Assembly: GCA_017938725.1 (NCBI GenBank)
Contig: JAGBAW010000011.1
Location: 1 to 42,148 of the forward strand
Origin: Bacilli bacterium
GTDB lineage: Bacteria; Bacillota_I; Bacilli_A; RF39; UBA660
Length of the DNA stretch: 42,148 bases
Direction: 5' to 3'
The notes beneath the pieces were generated by a model. That model did no database searches. It was not told the origin of the DNA and worked only from the letters and a program-made list of their open reading frames with translations. Positions 33,941-42,148 of the stretch are shown piece after piece. A program made the position numbers and the translations under genes. The stretch's first letter is position 1; each line of letters begins with the position of its first letter.

Positions 33941-33954
33941 AGGATGTGCTTAAA

Positions 33955-36075
33955 ATGAGGAAGGAAAAGATGGTGAATAAGGTTCATATTAATAAACTTA
34001 TATTCATTATAAGCCTTCTTTTATTTTGTACCATAATAATTAGGTTGATATATCTAAATTTATCTCCTACAATAGATGGGATAAATTTATCTGAATTTGC
34101 AAAAAATAGAAACACTACTAAAGAGACTTTATATGCAACAAGGGGAACAATTTATGATTCTAATAAAGAAATACTTGCTCAATCAGTAGATTCTTATACA
34201 ATAATTGCATATTTAGATAAAAGCAGGAGTAAAAATTCTTTAAAACCAAAGCATGTAGTTGATAAAGAAATGACCGCTGAAAAACTTTCTCCTATCTTAA
34301 ATATGACAAAAGAAAGAATACTTGAACTTTTAAATCAAAAAGGTTTATACCAAGTTGAATTAGGTCCAGGTGGCAAGGGACTTACTGAACTTCAGAAAGA
34401 GGAAATTGAAAAGTTAGAATTACCAGGAATTGATTTTATTAGTACTACCAAAAGATATTATCCAAATCTTGATTTTGCATCATATATACTTGGTTACGTA
34501 AAAACTGATGAAGAAACTTCTCAAATGAATGGTGAAATGGGGGTTGAACTTTATTACAATAAGGAACTTACTGGTACTAATGGTTCACTTGAATATCAAG
34601 TAGATGCAAATGGTTATAAACTCATTACAAATAGTGATGCATCAGAGATTAGAATAGATAAAATAGATGGTATGGATATATACTTGACAATTGATAGTAA
34701 TGTTCAACTAATTGTAGAAAGGGCATTAAATACGTATTTTGAATCATCGGGTGCAACAAATGGTGGTGTAGTAGTTGCGGATGCCAAAACTGGCAAAATA
34801 CTTGCATCAACAAGTAGACCTAGTTTTGATCCAAATATAAAAGATATAAAAAGTTACTTAGATCCACTTGTTTCAGTTGCTTTTGAACCAGGTTCTACAA
34901 TGAAAACATATACCTACATGACAGCTTTAGAAAAAGGAACTTATAAGGGTGATGATAAGTTCATGTCTGGTACTATGGAAATTAGCGGATATACAATTAG
35001 GGATTGGAATAGAGTTGGTTGGGGTGAAGTTACATATGATTATGGTTATATGCAGTCATCTAATATAGGTATTGCCAATTTAGTAAGTAAATATATTACA
35101 AGAGATGATTTATATTCATATTTTGATAAATTAGGATTTGGAAAGAAAACTGGCATAGAACTTCCAGGTGAGGTGACAGGTAAAATATCATTTAAATATG
35201 ATATTGAAGTTGCAACAGCGGGATTTGGCCAAGGTATTACGACAACTCCAATTCAACATATAAAGGCACTAACCTCGATATCGAATAATGGGTACTTATT
35301 AAATCCAACAATAATTGAAAAAATAGTTGATTCTAATACTAAAAAAACAGTATATAAATATAAGGATAAAAAAGGTACTAAGGTAGCAAGTGAATCTACA
35401 GTAAATAAAATTAAGGATTTGATGAACTCTGTTGTAAGTAATCCTCAGGCAACAGGACATATTTATTATCTTGATGGATATAACATAATTGGTAAAACAG
35501 GTACAGCTCAAATATTAAATCCAAATACAGGACAATATTACTCAGGTGATATAGCAGCTATAAAGTCATTTGAAGGTATGTATCCTAAAGATGATCCTAA
35601 GTTTATATTTTATATATATCTAGAAAGAGCTAGATCAAATAAGATGCCTGATATATTAAAATCAATTATTAAGGATATAGAGACATATTATAATATTACA
35701 AAGGTTAATACAGGGGATACAAAAAACTACAAAATGGAAAACTTTTTGAATAAAAATGTTGATACAGTAAAAAATACACTAAATTTATTCGGTATTAAAT
35801 ATGAGATAATAGGTACAGGAAATAAAATAATAAACCAGTATCCATTAAATGGTACAATAGTAAATGGTAAAGTATTTTTGGTTACTAATTCAAGTGATAT
35901 AACTATTCCCAATATTGTTGGATATTCTAGAAAAGATGCAGTAAATCTAGTAAGATTATTGAATCTTGATTATTCTTTAGAAGGTAATGGCTATGTATCT
36001 ACTTATAATGTAGAAGTGGATGAAAATGGTAAACCTATAAAAGTTAATATTGTATTAAATGATAAATACAAGTAA
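33955..36075 (+). CDS. Septal class B penicillin-binding protein with PASTA domains
   Basis: About 706 aa. One membrane anchor (about residues 12-34), a pedestal domain with TRGTIYDSNKEILAQS, and a transpeptidase domain with SxxK at S314 (GSTMK), SxN at S368-S-N370 and KTG at K514, all intact. The C-terminus (about 585-706) has two PASTA-like repeats (FLNKNVDTVKNTLNLFGIKY and IPNIVGYSRKDAVNLVRLLNL). This is the PbpB/SpoVD (FtsI) type that cross-links septal peptidoglycan. I chose the ATG at 33955 over the GTG at 33946. mraY, murD and ftsW do not follow. Confidence 0.93.
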   Translation: MRKEKMVNKVHINKLIFIISLLLFCTIIIRLIYLNLSPTIDGINLSEFAKNRNTTKETLYATRGTIYDSNKEILAQSVDSYTIIAYLDKSRSKNSLKPKHVVDKEMTAEKLSPILNMTKERILELLNQKGLYQVELGPGGKGLTELQKEEIEKLELPGIDFISTTKRYYPNLDFASYILGYVKTDEETSQMNGEMGVELYYNKELTGTNGSLEYQVDANGYKLITNSDASEIRIDKIDGMDIYLTIDSNVQLIVERALNTYFESSGATNGGVVVADAKTGKILASTSRPSFDPNIKDIKSYLDPLVSVAFEPGSTMKTYTYMTALEKGTYKGDDKFMSGTMEISGYTIRDWNRVGWGEVTYDYGYMQSSNIGIANLVSKYITRDDLYSYFDKLGFGKKTGIELPGEVTGKISFKYDIEVATAGFGQGITTTPIQHIKALTSISNNGYLLNPTIIEKIVDSNTKKTVYKYKDKKGTKVASESTVNKIKDLMNSVVSNPQATGHIYYLDGYNIIGKTGTAQILNPNTGQYYSGDIAAIKSFEGMYPKDDPKFIFYIYLERARSNKMPDILKSIIKDIETYYNITKVNTGDTKNYKMENFLNKNVDTVKNTLNLFGIKYEIIGTGNKIINQYPLNGTIVNGKVFLVTNSSDITIPNIVGYSRKDAVNLVRLLNLDYSLEGNGYVSTYNVEVDENGKPIKVNIVLNDKYK

Positions 36076-36439: not shown

Positions 36440-36469
36440 TTTACATAAACTGTAATTTTGGTGTATAAT
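36440..36469 (+). promoter_or_regulatory. Promoter of pyk
   Basis: TTTACA (36440-36445), 18 nt, TATAAT (36464-36469). AAGGAGAG (36481-36488) is the Shine-Dalgarno. Confidence 0.75.
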
Positions 36470-36496
36470 ACTCTTGCAAAAAGGAGAGTTGTAGAA

Positions 36497-37906
36497 ATGA
36501 AAAAAACAAAAATAGTATGTAGTATTGGTCCATCTACACAAAATTGGAAAAATTTTAAGGGATTAGTAGATGCTGGTATGAATGTAGCAAGAATTAACTT
36601 TTCACATGCTACCATGGAAGAAAGAAAAATTGATGAAGAATTAATTAAAAGAGCAAATGATGAACTTGGTGTACATATTGCAACATTATATGATACAAAG
36701 GGACCAGACTTAAGAACATGTACTTTTGAAGGAGATTATATTGATTTAGTTGAGGGAAAAACTATTCGTATAATTGAATCAGATGAACCTGGTACAAAAG
36801 ATGCTATATCATTTAATTATAATGGTATATTAAAGGATTTAAAACCTGGTATGAGTGTACTTTTAGATGATGGATTTTATAAATTAGAAGTTGAAAGTAA
36901 TGACTCTGATGGTGGTGTTACATGCAGAATTTGTAATGGTGGAACAATTAAAAGTAGACGTGGTGTGTGTATTCCAGGTATAAAACTAGATGTTCCATAT
37001 GTAAGCGAGCAAGATAGAGAAGATATTAAATATGCTTGCGACCATGATGGTGATTATTTGGCAATATCATTTGTTAATAGTGCTGAAAATATTAAAGAGG
37101 TTAGAAAACTATGTGCTGAATTTGGCAAACCAAATATGCCTATTATATCTAAGATAGAAACTCAATATGCTATGGATAATTTAGATTCAATAATTGATGA
37201 AACAGATGTAGTCATGATAGCAAGAGGGGATTTAGGAATAGAAACAGGTGTTGAAAATCTTCCATTATACCAACAAATGATGATTACTAAATGCCGTGAA
37301 AAAGCTAAACCAGTTATAATGGCAACTCAAATGATGGCAAGTATGAAACATAGTATTAGACCTACAAATGCAGAAGTAACAGACGTTGCTAATGCTGTAC
37401 TTGCAGGATGTGATGCTGTAATGACTAGTGATGAAACAACAATGGGTGAATATCCAGTTGAAACAGTTCAAAATATGGCTGAAATTTGTAAAAAGGTTGA
37501 AAGTTATTATAAATATGATAATAGATATGATTATACTGCTACTGATAAAACAGATATAATTGCTAGAAGTGTTGTTAATGCAAGTAATCAATTAAATTCA
37601 AAAGTAATAGTAGCAGCTACAATGTCAGGTCATACTGCTGCAGCTATTAGTAACTTAAGACCAGATGCACCTATACTAGCAACTGTACCTGGTGAAAAAA
37701 TAGCTAAAGCAGTTTCACTTAATTATGGTGTATATCCAGTAGTTGTTGGAGAATATAAATCAACTGATGAACTTGTAAATGATGGTGTTGCTAAAGCTAA
37801 AGAATTTGCAGAGTTAAATAAGGGTGATCAAATAATTATTACAGGTGGTTTCCCTAATAATGGAAATAAAACTACAAACTTTATGAAAATAGAAGAAATT
37901 GATTAA
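36497..37906 (+). CDS. pyk: Pyruvate kinase
   Basis: 469 aa. It catalyses PEP plus ADP to pyruvate plus ATP. Signatures: TKIVCSIGPSTQ, MNVARINFSHA, YDTKGPDLRT, ISKIETQ, MIARGDLGIE and IMATQMMASM. It lacks the extra C-terminal PEP-utiliser-like domain present in Bacillus Pyk, so it is the short form. I chose the ATG at 36497 with AAGGAGAG 8 nt upstream. Single gene; the promoter for the next gene overlaps its 3' end. Confidence 0.97.
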   Translation: MKKTKIVCSIGPSTQNWKNFKGLVDAGMNVARINFSHATMEERKIDEELIKRANDELGVHIATLYDTKGPDLRTCTFEGDYIDLVEGKTIRIIESDEPGTKDAISFNYNGILKDLKPGMSVLLDDGFYKLEVESNDSDGGVTCRICNGGTIKSRRGVCIPGIKLDVPYVSEQDREDIKYACDHDGDYLAISFVNSAENIKEVRKLCAEFGKPNMPIISKIETQYAMDNLDSIIDETDVVMIARGDLGIETGVENLPLYQQMMITKCREKAKPVIMATQMMASMKHSIRPTNAEVTDVANAVLAGCDAVMTSDETTMGEYPVETVQNMAEICKKVESYYKYDNRYDYTATDKTDIIARSVVNASNQLNSKVIVAATMSGHTAAAISNLRPDAPILATVPGEKIAKAVSLNYGVYPVVVGEYKSTDELVNDGVAKAKEFAELNKGDQIIITGGFPNNGNKTTNFMKIEEID

Positions 37907-37928
37907 TTTCTTTTATTTTTGTTATAAT
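37899..37928 (+). promoter_or_regulatory. Promoter of the XRE membrane regulator
   Basis: TTGATT (37899-37904, inside the pyk end), 18 nt, TATAAT (37923-37928) preceded by TGT. It yields a leader of about 94 nt. Confidence 0.65.
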
Positions 37929-37934
37929 ATTAGT

Positions 37935-37988
37935 GAATGCAACCGAAACTTTACAAAATTTCAAAGCAAAGTTGGTAGAATGCAACCG
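37935..37988 (+). promoter_or_regulatory. Leader with paired GAATGCAACCG repeats and hairpin
   Basis: GAATGCAACCG occurs at 37935-37945 and again at 37978-37988, 43 bp apart, about four helical turns. Between them, ACC plus AACTTT (37942-37952, GA bulged) can pair with AAAGTTGGT (37968-37976). It may be a two-site operator for the XRE protein encoded next, or a structured leader. No known riboswitch recognised. Confidence 0.5.
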
Positions 37989-38028
37989 TAAATAATATTA
38001 AAATTAATAGCGAAAGGAGTGAAATAAT

Positions 38029-39630
38029 TTGAAATTTGGAGACAAGTTAATTGCTTTAAGAAAGAAAGCAGGAATGTCACAAGAAGAATTAGCAGAAAAA
38101 TTAGGGGTGTCAAGGCAATCTGTATCTAAATGGGAAAGTAATAATACTTATCCAGAAACCGATAAGATAGTACAAATATGTAATATATTTGATTGTTCAA
38201 TGGATGATCTTATTAATGATAATATAAGTACAATTGAAAATATAGAAAGAAAAAGTAAAAATAACTTAAATGTTGTACTTGATTCATTTTTAGAGTTTAT
38301 AACAAAAACAATTAATATGTTTTGCGATATGAAATTCATAAGTGGACTAAAATGCGTAATTGAAATGATTATACTTTCAGTAATATTAATTATTGCAGGT
38401 TTAGTAATTGTAAGTTTTACTAGTTATATTGTAATAGATTTATTTTCTTTTATTCCGAGTATTGTAAGTGATATGTTTTGTCAAGTAATAGAAAGTCTAA
38501 TTACTATATTATTTGTTATATTATCAATAATAATACTAGTACATGTATTTAAGATAAGATACTTAGATTATTATGATAAAGTATTAGATGAAAAAACAAA
38601 TCAGAAGGATGGAGATGTTAAAAATGAAAAAATTTCCATTAGCAAAAAAGAGGACAAAAAAATTAAGTTTGAAAGTAACCCAAAGATAATAATTAGAGAT
38701 GAAAAACATAGACCATTTGCATTCTTATCTATATTATCTAGAATAATAATATTTTTCATAAAATTTATGTTAATGTTCTTCGTATTAGGTCTAATATTTA
38801 GTTTACTAATATTTATAGTTTTATTTATTATATCAATTTCTTTAATAACTACTAATGCAATATTTATTGGAAGTACACTTGCACTAGCATCGGCTATTTC
38901 TGTTAATATAATTTTATTATTAGTAATAATTAACTTTATATTTAATAAAAAGCCTAATTATAAAATAATGTTAATAATATTTATGTCATCAGTTTTATTA
39001 TTTGGTATAGGTATAGGCATATCTACAATTAGCTTAAAGAATATAGAAATAAAAGAAGAAAATATTAAGACGATTACTAAAGAAGAAAAAATTCCATATG
39101 ATGAAGATATGATAATTTTAAATTATTATCTTGGGGATGTTGAGTATGTTATTGATGATAGTTTAAATAATAATATAAAATTAATGATAGAATATGATGA
39201 TAGATTTTATTCACATAATTTAGTGATGAATCAAGATTATTATAAAATGAATAAAACTTTTGTTTCATTACACACTAATACAAATATTTTAAAAATATAT
39301 AACGAAATAACAAAAGATTTAAAAAATAATATCTTAAGAGATTATACTAATGATAATTATATGAATATAACAGTTGTTTCATCAAAAAATGTAATAGAAA
39401 AAATAATTGGTAACACAAAAAAAGTATATTTTGTAGATGAAACAAATACAGAAAATGGATATATTTTATCAAACTTTGAACACAGAATTAGTGGTTATAC
39501 TGAATGTACTGGAAATTATAATGCTAAAACAAATGAAATTTCTACAGATTTAGAAGGATGTACTTGTAAAATCAGAAATGAAAAAACAAACAGAGGAGAT
39601 ATTATAAATTATTCTTGTGATTGGGATTAA
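38029..39630 (+). CDS. Membrane-bound XRE-family transcriptional regulator
   Basis: 533 aa. The N-terminal helix-turn-helix (residues 1-65: KLIALRKKAGMSQEELAEKLGVSRQSVSKWESNNTYPETDKIVQIC) is followed by several hydrophobic helices (about 105-135, 150-175, 235-300 and 320-345) and a C-terminal outer or soluble domain rich in beta strands with two late Cys pairs. It is a one-component regulator anchored in the membrane, probably sensing the envelope. The start is TTG with AAAGGAGTG upstream. The long leader with repeats suggests autoregulation. Confidence 0.8.
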   Translation: MKFGDKLIALRKKAGMSQEELAEKLGVSRQSVSKWESNNTYPETDKIVQICNIFDCSMDDLINDNISTIENIERKSKNNLNVVLDSFLEFITKTINMFCDMKFISGLKCVIEMIILSVILIIAGLVIVSFTSYIVIDLFSFIPSIVSDMFCQVIESLITILFVILSIIILVHVFKIRYLDYYDKVLDEKTNQKDGDVKNEKISISKKEDKKIKFESNPKIIIRDEKHRPFAFLSILSRIIIFFIKFMLMFFVLGLIFSLLIFIVLFIISISLITTNAIFIGSTLALASAISVNIILLLVIINFIFNKKPNYKIMLIIFMSSVLLFGIGIGISTISLKNIEIKEENIKTITKEEKIPYDEDMIILNYYLGDVEYVIDDSLNNNIKLMIEYDDRFYSHNLVMNQDYYKMNKTFVSLHTNTNILKIYNEITKDLKNNILRDYTNDNYMNITVVSSKNVIEKIIGNTKKVYFVDETNTENGYILSNFEHRISGYTECTGNYNAKTNEISTDLEGCTCKIRNEKTNRGDIINYSCDWD

Positions 39631-39656
39631 AAAGTATAAGAAATTATACTTTTTTT
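39629..39656 (+). terminator. Terminator of the XRE regulator with a GAAA loop
   Basis: AAAAAGTATAA (39629-39639) pairs with TTATACTTTTT (39644-39654) around GAAA, an 11-bp stem ending in T7. Confidence 0.9.
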
Positions 39657-39666
39657 GGTGTATAAT
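39638..39666 (+). promoter_or_regulatory. DUF4186 gene promoter behind the terminator loop
   Basis: TATAAT (39661-39666) lies 17 nt after AAGAAA (39638-39643), which includes the terminator loop; that -35 matches consensus poorly. GGTGA begins exactly 6 nt after the -10. Confidence 0.5.
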
Positions 39667-39682
39667 TAAATCGGTGAAAAGT

Positions 39683-40036
39683 ATGGAAGATATATTTTAT
39701 AGACTTTCTAAATCGAAATTTAGAAGTAAATTTAAACTTAGTTATAAAAATAAAAAATATATAGAAGATAAAGGTATAGATAAAATAAAAGAACATGCAT
39801 ACGATTTTATAAATAAAAGACTTGCACCTAAAGTAATCTTAAATGATGGAAAGCAAACACCTATGAGAGGTCATCCAGTATTTATTTCTCAACATGCAAC
39901 TGCAACCTGCTGCAGAAATTGTTTATATAAATGGCATAAAATACCTATGAATAAAGAACTTACAAAGCAAGAGGTTGATTATATAGTAGATGTAATAATG
40001 AAATGGATTAACAAGCATATTCCAAAAGAAATGTAA
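39683..40036 (+). CDS. DUF4186 family protein
   Basis: 118 aa. It carries the family hallmark RLAPKVILNDGKQTPMRGHPVF, then ISQHATATCCRNCLYKWHKIP, with conserved His and Cys suggesting metal binding, and a helical C-terminus (YIVDVIMKWINKHIP). The function of the family is unknown. I chose the ATG at 39683 (GGTGA 5 nt upstream); the longer frame from 39617 would run through the preceding terminator. Confidence 0.9.
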   Translation: MEDIFYRLSKSKFRSKFKLSYKNKKYIEDKGIDKIKEHAYDFINKRLAPKVILNDGKQTPMRGHPVFISQHATATCCRNCLYKWHKIPMNKELTKQEVDYIVDVIMKWINKHIPKEM

Positions 40037-40252
40037 AATCCAATAATTAGATGCGAAAAATATACTGAAAATATTAAATAGATTACTTGAAAATATTAAA
40101 AGACTTAAATTTGTTTAATTTAATTGTTGCTATTTATCATTTTTATTATATTGTCAATTAAATATTAAACAGTAATTTTAATTATTTATTAAACCGAGAT
40201 ATTTACAAAAGATTAGATATCTTCTTTTTTTCATATCAAATGATCCCATTCA
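40037..40252 (+). other. Intergenic region before the second PBP
   Basis: About 215 bp, very AT-rich. TGAAAATATTAAA occurs twice (40066-40078, 40088-40100) with a 22-bp period. No gene seen. A terminator-like hairpin lies at its end. Confidence 0.5.
40196..40231 (+). terminator. Terminator-like hairpin before the second PBP
   Basis: AGATAT (40197-40202) pairs with ATATCT (40217-40222), plus a G-U, around a 14-nt loop, followed by TCT7. Confidence 0.55.
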
Positions 40253-40258
40253 TATAAT
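40230..40258 (+). promoter_or_regulatory. Probable promoter of the second PBP
   Basis: TATAAT (40253-40258), with a weak TTCATA (40230-40235) 17 nt upstream. GAGGTGG starts 6 nt after the -10. Confidence 0.5.
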
Positions 40259-40275: not shown

Positions 40276-41325
40276 GTGTTTTTCAAAGATATTCATGTAA
40301 AAATTAGATTATTTTTTGTAATAGTTGTAATATTATTTCTCACTATAATTGGGAAAGTGATATATATCCAAGTATTTGAATACGATAAATTATCAAAATT
40401 ATCAAGTGACTTATGGAGCCGTAATTTACCAGTAGAAGGATCAAGGGGATTAATTTATGATAGAAATGGTGTAGTACTTGCAGATAATGTTACTACAACT
40501 AGTTTAGTCTTAATACCCAATCAGATAAAGGAAAAGGAAAGGGCAATAAAAGAAATTTCTAGTATACTAAACGTAACAGAAGAAGAAATGGCAAAGCATG
40601 TAAATAAAAAGACTTCAATTGAAAGAGTACATCCAGAAGGTAGAAGACTATCATTTGAAGTAGCTGATAAAATAGCAGCCTTAAATATAGAAGGTGTATA
40701 TTTAGTTAAAGAATCAAAAAGAAATTATCCATATGATTCTAATTTATCACATGTACTAGGTTATGTTGGTATAGATAATCAAGGCCTTTCAGGTTTAGAA
40801 CTTCAATATGATAAATATTTAACTGGAGAATATGGTTCAATTAAATATTTTTCGGATGCTAAAGGTAATAAATTAGAGCTAAGCGAAATATATGAACAAC
40901 CTCAAGATGGTATGAACTTAATGCTTACAATAGATAATAACATTCAACTTGCAGTCGAAAGGGAACTTGATAATGCAGTAAGTAAATATAATCCAGAACA
41001 TGCTCTTGCAATTGTAATGGACCCAAACTCTGGTGAAATACTCGCAATGAGTTCAAGACCAAACTTTTCACCATCTAATTATCAAGATTATTCAATTGAG
41101 GAAATAAATAGAAATCTTCCAATATGGATGAATTATGAACCAGGATCAACATTTAAGATAATAACGCTTGCTGCATCCCTGGAAGAAAATACCGTTGATC
41201 TTCAAAATGATAGGTTTTATGATGGTGGAAGTGTAAGAGTAGCTAATGCCAAAATAAAGTGTTGGAAAACAAAAGGTCATGGTGCGCAGACATTTTTACA
41301 GGTTGTTGAAAATTCTTGTAATCTT
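40276..41325 (+). pseudogene. Class B penicillin-binding protein, 3' truncated
   Basis: About 350 residues of a PbpB/SpoVD-type PBP: membrane anchor (about 10-30), pedestal with GSRGLIYDRNGVVLADN, transpeptidase start with SxxK at S291 (GSTFK) and SxN as S347-C-N349 (VVENSCN). Family members continue SCNPGF..., but here similarity stops at about 41322 and the frame ends at a TAA at 41368-41370 after unrelated residues. KTG and everything after are absent, so the product cannot be an active transpeptidase. It starts at a GTG with GAGGTGG upstream. Confidence 0.85.
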
Positions 41326-42148
41326 CTGGTGAATACAGGAACACATTTAAGTTTATTGAGAACCCTTTAAATTCTATAAAACAAATTACCAAGATTGATG
41401 TTAATACTAACTATGATTTGATATATGATGGGGTATTATATTTTAATAATTCACCTGTTGTTATTCCAAACAGTGAAACCGTAGTAATCAAAAATGTAAA
41501 GAAAAAAAGTAAGAAAATAGGTGCAAAATTATTTGACATAAATACCAGTGATTACAAAAAATTGACTTCCAACAAGAGAGTTGAAATAATTCAATTATTT
41601 GATAAATTAGACGAGAAGATTTTGAAGAAATTTAATGGAATACATAGAAACTATTTAATGAAAGAAGTAGCATATAAAACTAATGTTAGATTAATGACTG
41701 TTGTTATTAAGCAAAATGAGTTGATTATAAATTTTGATAAGTCTGCTAAAGATTATGATACTAAAAATTTATTAAAAGAAAGAGCTGGATATCAAAATCA
41801 AAATATTTCTTACTCAATGTGTATTAGTAAACAGAGTGAACTTAATTATGTCATTAAATTGTTTGAAAACTTATATAATAATAAAACAGACAATAGCAAA
41901 GAATTGTATATTGATAATTTACTATCTGATATAACTAATAATATATTAAATATTGATAAATCTATAAAGAAGAAAAAAGTAAATAAAGGATTAATGTTTA
42001 AAGCTAGTAGAAACTTTGCTATTTTAGAAAGAAGAAAATATGGAATTAATGTAAGAATATTAGAAGTAAAAGATAATGATAATTTATTATCCGTAGTAGG
42101 TAGAACAAATTATGAACCTTTATGTAGATCGTTTAAAATTAAAACAAA
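41326..42148 (+). CDS. 5'-truncated DUF5655-like protein, runs off the window
   Basis: A frame shifted relative to the PBP opens right at its break (SSGEYRNTFKFIENPL) and stays open to the window end (about 274 codons). It has no start codon, Shine-Dalgarno or promoter of its own at the junction. The middle (about 80-185: RVEIIQLFDKLDEKIL...YSMCISKQSELNYVIKLFENLYNN) and probably the end form two DUF5655-type domains (a small fold near transport/restriction-associated proteins). The N-terminus appears to be missing. Assignment is by pattern only. Confidence 0.6.

Follow-up and report, generated by a model that had tools for sequence, protein, structure and literature searches.

A putative skin-type intervening element at the SxN codons of a spoVD-like gene in an uncultured family of gut Bacilli

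The window analysed here, a stretch of 42,148 nucleotides, is the whole of contig C38 of the draft genome G000 (1.07 Mb, 38 contigs, 90% complete). Near its end lies the 5' part of a gene for a SpoVD-like class B penicillin-binding protein (PBP), which is broken off within the codons of its SxN motif and is followed at once by DNA of an integrative element. The features at this locus are:

40231 to 40258, forward strand: sigma-E-like promoter of spoVD (TCATATC, 13 nt, CATATAAT)
40276 to 41321, forward strand: 5' part (amino acids 1–349) of the SpoVD-like class B PBP, with a GTG start at 40276 and ending in the SxN motif (SCN)
41298 to 41343, forward strand: attL, with host half-site 41298–41319, core AA 41320–41321 and element half-site 41322–41343
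41322 to 41370, forward strand: spurious end of the interrupted PBP frame, encoded by the element (approx. 15 codons unrelated to the family, stop at 41370)
41322 to 42148, forward strand: left end of the integrative element (last 827 bases), with a startless tandem DUF5655 open reading frame (EXT) cut by the contig end

Among all models, TIGR02214 (SpoVD) gave the half protein its top score and was the best NCBIfam match (E = 2.4e-108), with 363 bits for the half against an equivalog cut-off of 688 bits; domain search detected PBP_dimer and the first third of Transpeptidase. With the intact protein of a sister genome (G006) the half shared 93.7% identity up to residue 349, the match ending after SCN. 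A preliminary description of this DNA had the PBP leaving its family right after VVENSCN, at approximately 41322, had a startless second frame beginning at that point, and considered both partners to be truncated there. All of this was confirmed: the match to the family ends at 41322, from where a non-PBP frame is open to the end of the window (275 codons). As the window is a complete contig, this second frame is truncated by the contig end and not by the window alone. In most relatives with an intact gene, DNA similarity stops at approximately window base 41321–41323. Comparison with sister genomes, proposed in the same description, revealed the same junction in independent genomes, and at the DNA level it was located at the same spoVD codon in 26 genomes (12, a further 8 GTDB contigs and 6 more), whose record titles point to separate MAG projects on rumen, rabbit, deer, goat and other sources. 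The junction is not a product of chance, since the similarity of relatives ends there and it recurs in these 26 genomes. Upstream in the window, a first class B PBP gene (33946–36075) is separated from spoVD by genes for a helix-turn-helix membrane protein and a small conserved protein (36458–40036); the genes adjoining spoVD are common to G001 and G006.

The 3' half of the PBP gene, for which a search elsewhere in the genome had been suggested, was found at C28:30253–31113 of G000, 91% identical to G006 and 318 bases from the contig end. Its frame is open, mraY and ftsW (named from sequence) lie downstream, and from the contig end the C-terminus of a large serine integrase reads into it and is fused to it. 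Both TIGR02214 as the best model and the gene order before mraY and ftsW fit a SpoVD homologue. The gene is split likewise in the sister species G001 and G004 and uninterrupted in G002, G003, G005, G006 and G007.

Attachment sites were deduced by comparing intact genes with the two junctions. The junction in the window reads TTCTTGT-AA-TCTTCTGGTGAATACAGG, that on C28 CGTATTCACCAGAACG-AA-CCCAGGATT, and intact spoVD at this site TTCTTGT-AA-CCCAGG or near variants. The host sides, when joined, give the codons of the intact sister genes around the core AA, and precise excision would restore the spoVD reading frame. The element sides, when joined, give a predicted attP, TGTTGCCGTATTCACCAGAACG-AA-TCTTCTGGTGAATACAGGAACA, a 46-bp near-palindrome around the AA core with arms complementary at 18 of 22 positions (none of 100,000 shuffles was as good). 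Two other lineages possess different attP arms of like symmetry (17–18 of 22) around the same core. Symmetric arms around a short core are the layout expected of the attP and attB of serine integrases. We regard the junctions in the window and on C28 as attL and attR of one integrative element. A deletion was considered first and rejected, the junction being that of a site-specific insertion; of the earlier suggestion that a deletion or recombination had fused two loci, recombination was correct in kind and deletion was not. The 5' half, element, integrase and 3' half are all found on a single contig in G065, G152 and G026, the only genomes in which the element was assembled through. The element ends in G000 lie on separate contigs and are linked by the logic of the att sites and by near-identical elements in G195 and G081, in which the ends are likewise on separate contigs.

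EXT in the window matches DUF5655 (PF18899) with 24.1 bits (E = 4e-5; Pfam gathering score 24), a full copy reaches 28.9 bits, and seven of eight EXT members match; its length is 311 amino acids in the near-identical copy of G081. It looks like two DUF5655 domains, and the predicted structure (pLDDT 72) has two alpha-beta domains, with a YdhG-like protein as the best PDB match (E = 0.04, too weak for assignment of a function). No match to EXT was obtained in phage and plasmid collections, and neither the integrase nor EXT had a relative in scans of viral contigs. In the copies examined EXT starts at the core and has no head of its own; in a GTDB scan 14 of 15 matches begin exactly at the junction, and the fifteenth, partial, also lies after a spoVD 5' half. 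EXT itself seems to be the far portion of the integrase frame that the element carries. As to the 5' part of the DUF5655 gene, which the earlier description had suggested looking for elsewhere in the genome, the integrase at the opposite element end is the most likely candidate.

At attR the integrase frame of G000 reads ...CCRIHQNE at the core, and across attP it would run on into SSGEYRNTFKFIENPLNS..., the first residues of EXT. Integrase, attP and EXT are in frame in most lineages, including G000, the near-identical G195 and G081, G065 (integrase of approximately 565 and EXT of 308 amino acids, on one contig) and G209. Read-through of attR by the integrase was likewise seen in G001 and in types G026 and G176. 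In G001 EXT is gone, and in G004 a deletion of 31 nt relative to G001 shifts the integrase frame. The G152 lineage has no fusion, its integrase ending before attP, and in G163 EXT is broken. The junction of G078 is followed by an open frame that aligns with the DUF5655 set and is more distant. If the host codons are TGT AAT, a TAA stands directly before EXT in its frame, and after integration read-through can therefore not reach EXT. No intact integrase–EXT frame was found in 193 genomes of the family and 395 of the class; the one long match, in G143 (open frame of 829), was rejected as a DUF5655-like tail on an unrelated protein.

A second, inverted attP-like site was located in the C-terminal coding region of the integrase, approximately 100 bp from the first, in G000, G195 and G081. 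The flanks of an insertion in G009, which belongs to another genus, are identical to this region over all 54 bases visible per side in G195 and G081, and at 54 and 53 of them in G000. Their orientation is as expected if the element had integrated via the second site, in reverse. The positions of the second site and of the G009 flanks are:

L063:11110–11290
L066:1–54
L067:3473–3526

We tentatively propose, at somewhat short of an even chance, that the integrase gene is a switch responding to the state of recombination. In the excised circle the integrase frame would run through attP into the C-terminal tandem DUF5655 part; integration would sever the two and, where the host codons are TGT AAT, replace the GAA or CAA of the junction by a TAA stop. 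Only the unintegrated form could then give rise to the long integrase. Integrated and excised forms would then encode different integrases, short and long and differing in directionality, with EXT, by analogy with engineered fusions of integrases and directionality factors, most likely biasing the direction of recombination, and in one element type the second attP would allow insertion in either orientation. If this is true, it would be a novel means of controlling recombination direction, with the integrase gaining or losing its C-terminus through the reaction that it catalyses. A comparably possible explanation, which we would also not call probable, is that the continuity is incidental, EXT being an independent gene with a lost start, or a remnant, and the integrase acting alone. 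The G152 lineage with no fusion, the broken EXT of G163, its loss in G001 and the failure to find a fused frame agree with this; the in-frame arrangement of three lineages (G000-type, G065 and G209), the read-through of attR in G001 and the G026 and G176 types, and the start of EXT at the core with no head of its own speak against it.

Large serine integrases were defined by Resolvase, Recombinase and zinc ribbon domains and a length of approximately 500 amino acids or more. The enzyme of G065 (573 amino acids) has Resolvase, Recombinase and Zn_ribbon_recom, and is 77% identical to that of G004. In G000, a full-length integrase of this element was not found, only its C-terminal end being assembled, beside attR; the best full-length integrase of this genome, encoded on C3, shares only 41% identity with the query. 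In the 193 family genomes, most of the integrases with the highest similarity to that of G004 adjoin a spoVD 3' half and are oriented like it, at residues ~348 (SxN), ~412–419 and ~290 (near SxxK); one adjoins spoIVA at residue 409, a much more distant one is located at residue 123 of spoIVA, and three adjoin a D-Ala-D-Ala carboxypeptidase gene neighbouring a Gate-domain (SpmA-like) gene, as dacB does. The latter three loci, each with a dacB-like gene whose frame starts near SxxK right beside the integrase and with the SpmA-like gene on the far side, are:

L088
L098
L102

In G005 (C4, L151:1726–13652) spoIVA is interrupted at residue ~122 by a 10-kb stretch with a distant serine integrase. The gene is also cut near residue 120 in G003, G004, G007 and G009 and is represented by a 1–124 fragment in G002; the family survey found SpoIVA split in some genomes at ~120 and ~405. 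On a tree of 36 integrases the target labels required 6 changes, the minimum possible (mean of shuffled labels, 16.8), and the clades, as resolved by this tree, match the target sites; it should be noted that the SxN integrases form one side of a branch with a bootstrap of 39, which is weak, and that the spoIVA entries are long branches. A full-length spoVD match was present in 104 of the 193 genomes. Among the spoVD matches listed, 20 are split at SxN, 9 at ~415 and more elsewhere, so that at least 29 of the 193 genomes are split at these two sites; contig ends may account for some of the other splits. In G080 one spoVD gene holds two elements, and that of G030 holds at least two. Across dozens of related species, elements of this family are inserted in several early spore genes. 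A small open reading frame, with a SHOCT_2 match below cut-off in two of five tried, lies directly upstream of most listed integrases and is a candidate directionality factor.

The motif CATA[CT]ANT, which we take to be a −10 box of sigma-E type, occurs 22–31 nt before the start in 33 of 63 spoVD upstream regions (2.6 expected from shuffles; maximum of 9 in 500). SpoIVA is intact in G000, and Spo0A was detected in seven of eight genomes tested, with no match in G000 (90% complete, 38 contigs). Genomes lacking SpoIVA mostly lack SpoVD (Fisher p = 1e-12, counts tallied manually from the family survey), and some genomes of the family are without both. The split spoVD halves of G000, G001 and G004 contain no stops, and their pN/pS (0.07–0.32, against 0.13–0.37 among intact copies) makes them look like sequences under purifying selection; a recent insertion could be another cause of intact halves. 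One split C-half in G030 has stops inside the matched stretch. In Bacillus subtilis dacB-spmAB, spoIVA and spoVD are sigma-E-controlled cortex genes, later repressed by SpoIIID (PMC517825).

The sequences themselves supply attL in the window, attR on C28, the uninterrupted attB of sister species, a symmetric attP and a site-specific group of integrases. We consider it likely that the integrase drives insertion at the SxN codons of spoVD, followed by skin-like excision in the mother cell. The element would have been inserted by its own large serine integrase, with the crossover at window 41320–41321, and vegetative cells would carry it passively, as is the case with skin of sigK. During sporulation, in the mother cell that requires spoVD, the integrase and a directionality factor (for which the small frame upstream of the integrase gene is the candidate) would excise it and restore spoVD exactly, and the spore genome would retain it. 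Such regulated excision is probable in view of the target gene and of skin-type precedents. It is made likely by the intact SpoIVA, the co-occurrence of SpoIVA and SpoVD, the stop-free halves with pN/pS like that of intact copies, the sigma-E-like promoter, the precedents (skin, SPbeta, gin and yin) and the candidate directionality frame.

An unlikely alternative is that an ordinary prophage or integrative element inactivated spoVD in hosts in which sporulation is lost or being lost, with no scheduled excision. Serine integrases commonly insert inside genes, and the missing Spo0A match in G000, the family genomes without SpoIVA and SpoVD, and the stops in the C-half of G030 would all agree with such decay; however, both halves are open and apparently under purifying selection in G000, G001 and G004, SpoIVA is intact in G000, and the targets of related integrases are not random but include several genes that belong to one mother-cell regulon. 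An assembly chimera, suggested earlier as an option and prompted by a junction 829 bases from the contig end of a draft genome, can be dismissed with near certainty. The junction recurs in 26 genomes of separate projects, a recurrence that the earlier description had itself named among the grounds against a chimera; single contigs contain both junctions, attP is symmetric, and the 3' half was recovered with a matching attR.

The excision model resembles skin in sigK of B. subtilis and Clostridioides difficile, likewise a serine-recombinase element inside a mother-cell sporulation gene, the precise excision of which restores the reading frame, as predicted here for spoVD. Skin of C. difficile is excised during sporulation and encodes a small directionality factor, CD1234 (PMC5025042). 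Unlike skin, which targets sigK, the present element occupies an early sigma-E cortex gene, has its integrase at its 3' side with the frame running into attP, and carries a DUF5655 extension; its excision is predicted. According to the accessible parts of three reports (PMC4191935, PMC5595907, PMC10747680), SPbeta in spsM, vfbin in spoVFB, vrin in spoVR, gin in gerE and yin in yabG, phage-like or not, also bear recombinases and interrupt sporulation genes; SPbeta and gin are excised during sporulation (PMC4191935, PMC5595907), and excision of yin is growth-phase-dependent (PMC10747680). Those parts report no element in spoVD, spoIVA or dacB. In contrast to these elements, related integrases here hit three genes of one regulon, at discrete sites, within one uncultured family. 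Engineered fusions of serine integrases with directionality factors (PMC5737554) likewise set direction by a protein part fused to the integrase; those are artificial and constant, whereas the fusion proposed here would be natural, made and unmade by recombination itself, and its DUF5655 part is not a known directionality factor. A literature search, mostly without subscription journals, found no precedent for interruption of spoVD, for attP inside integrase genes or for directionality factors of SHOCT type.

The sporulation intervening elements that we found described are single cases, several of them in late genes such as sigK and gerE. The related integrases described here have specialised on conserved codons of early sigma-E cortex genes (spoVD, spoIVA and dacB-like), two of the sites being at catalytic motifs, which suggests that regulated gene repair is a routine part of sporulation in this uncultured gut family. 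Standard annotation may score such split genes as absent; in one survey spoVD was reduced or absent in the order RF39 (PMC10868615), to which the present hosts may belong.

As to the cargo, the complete element of G065 (L138:3462–15921) encodes a Gp10-type baseplate protein, an RHS-repeat protein of 2016 amino acids and a type IV coupling protein, a mix of phage-like and conjugation-like content. The elements of G001 (C9, L070:5871–15175) and G004 (C22, L064:5881–15186) carry an apparently full NAD salvage set, named from the sequences as nicotinamidase, nicotinate phosphoribosyltransferase, NUDIX proteins, NadE, PRPP synthetase, NadD, a PncC-like protein, an NrtR-like regulator and NAD kinase.
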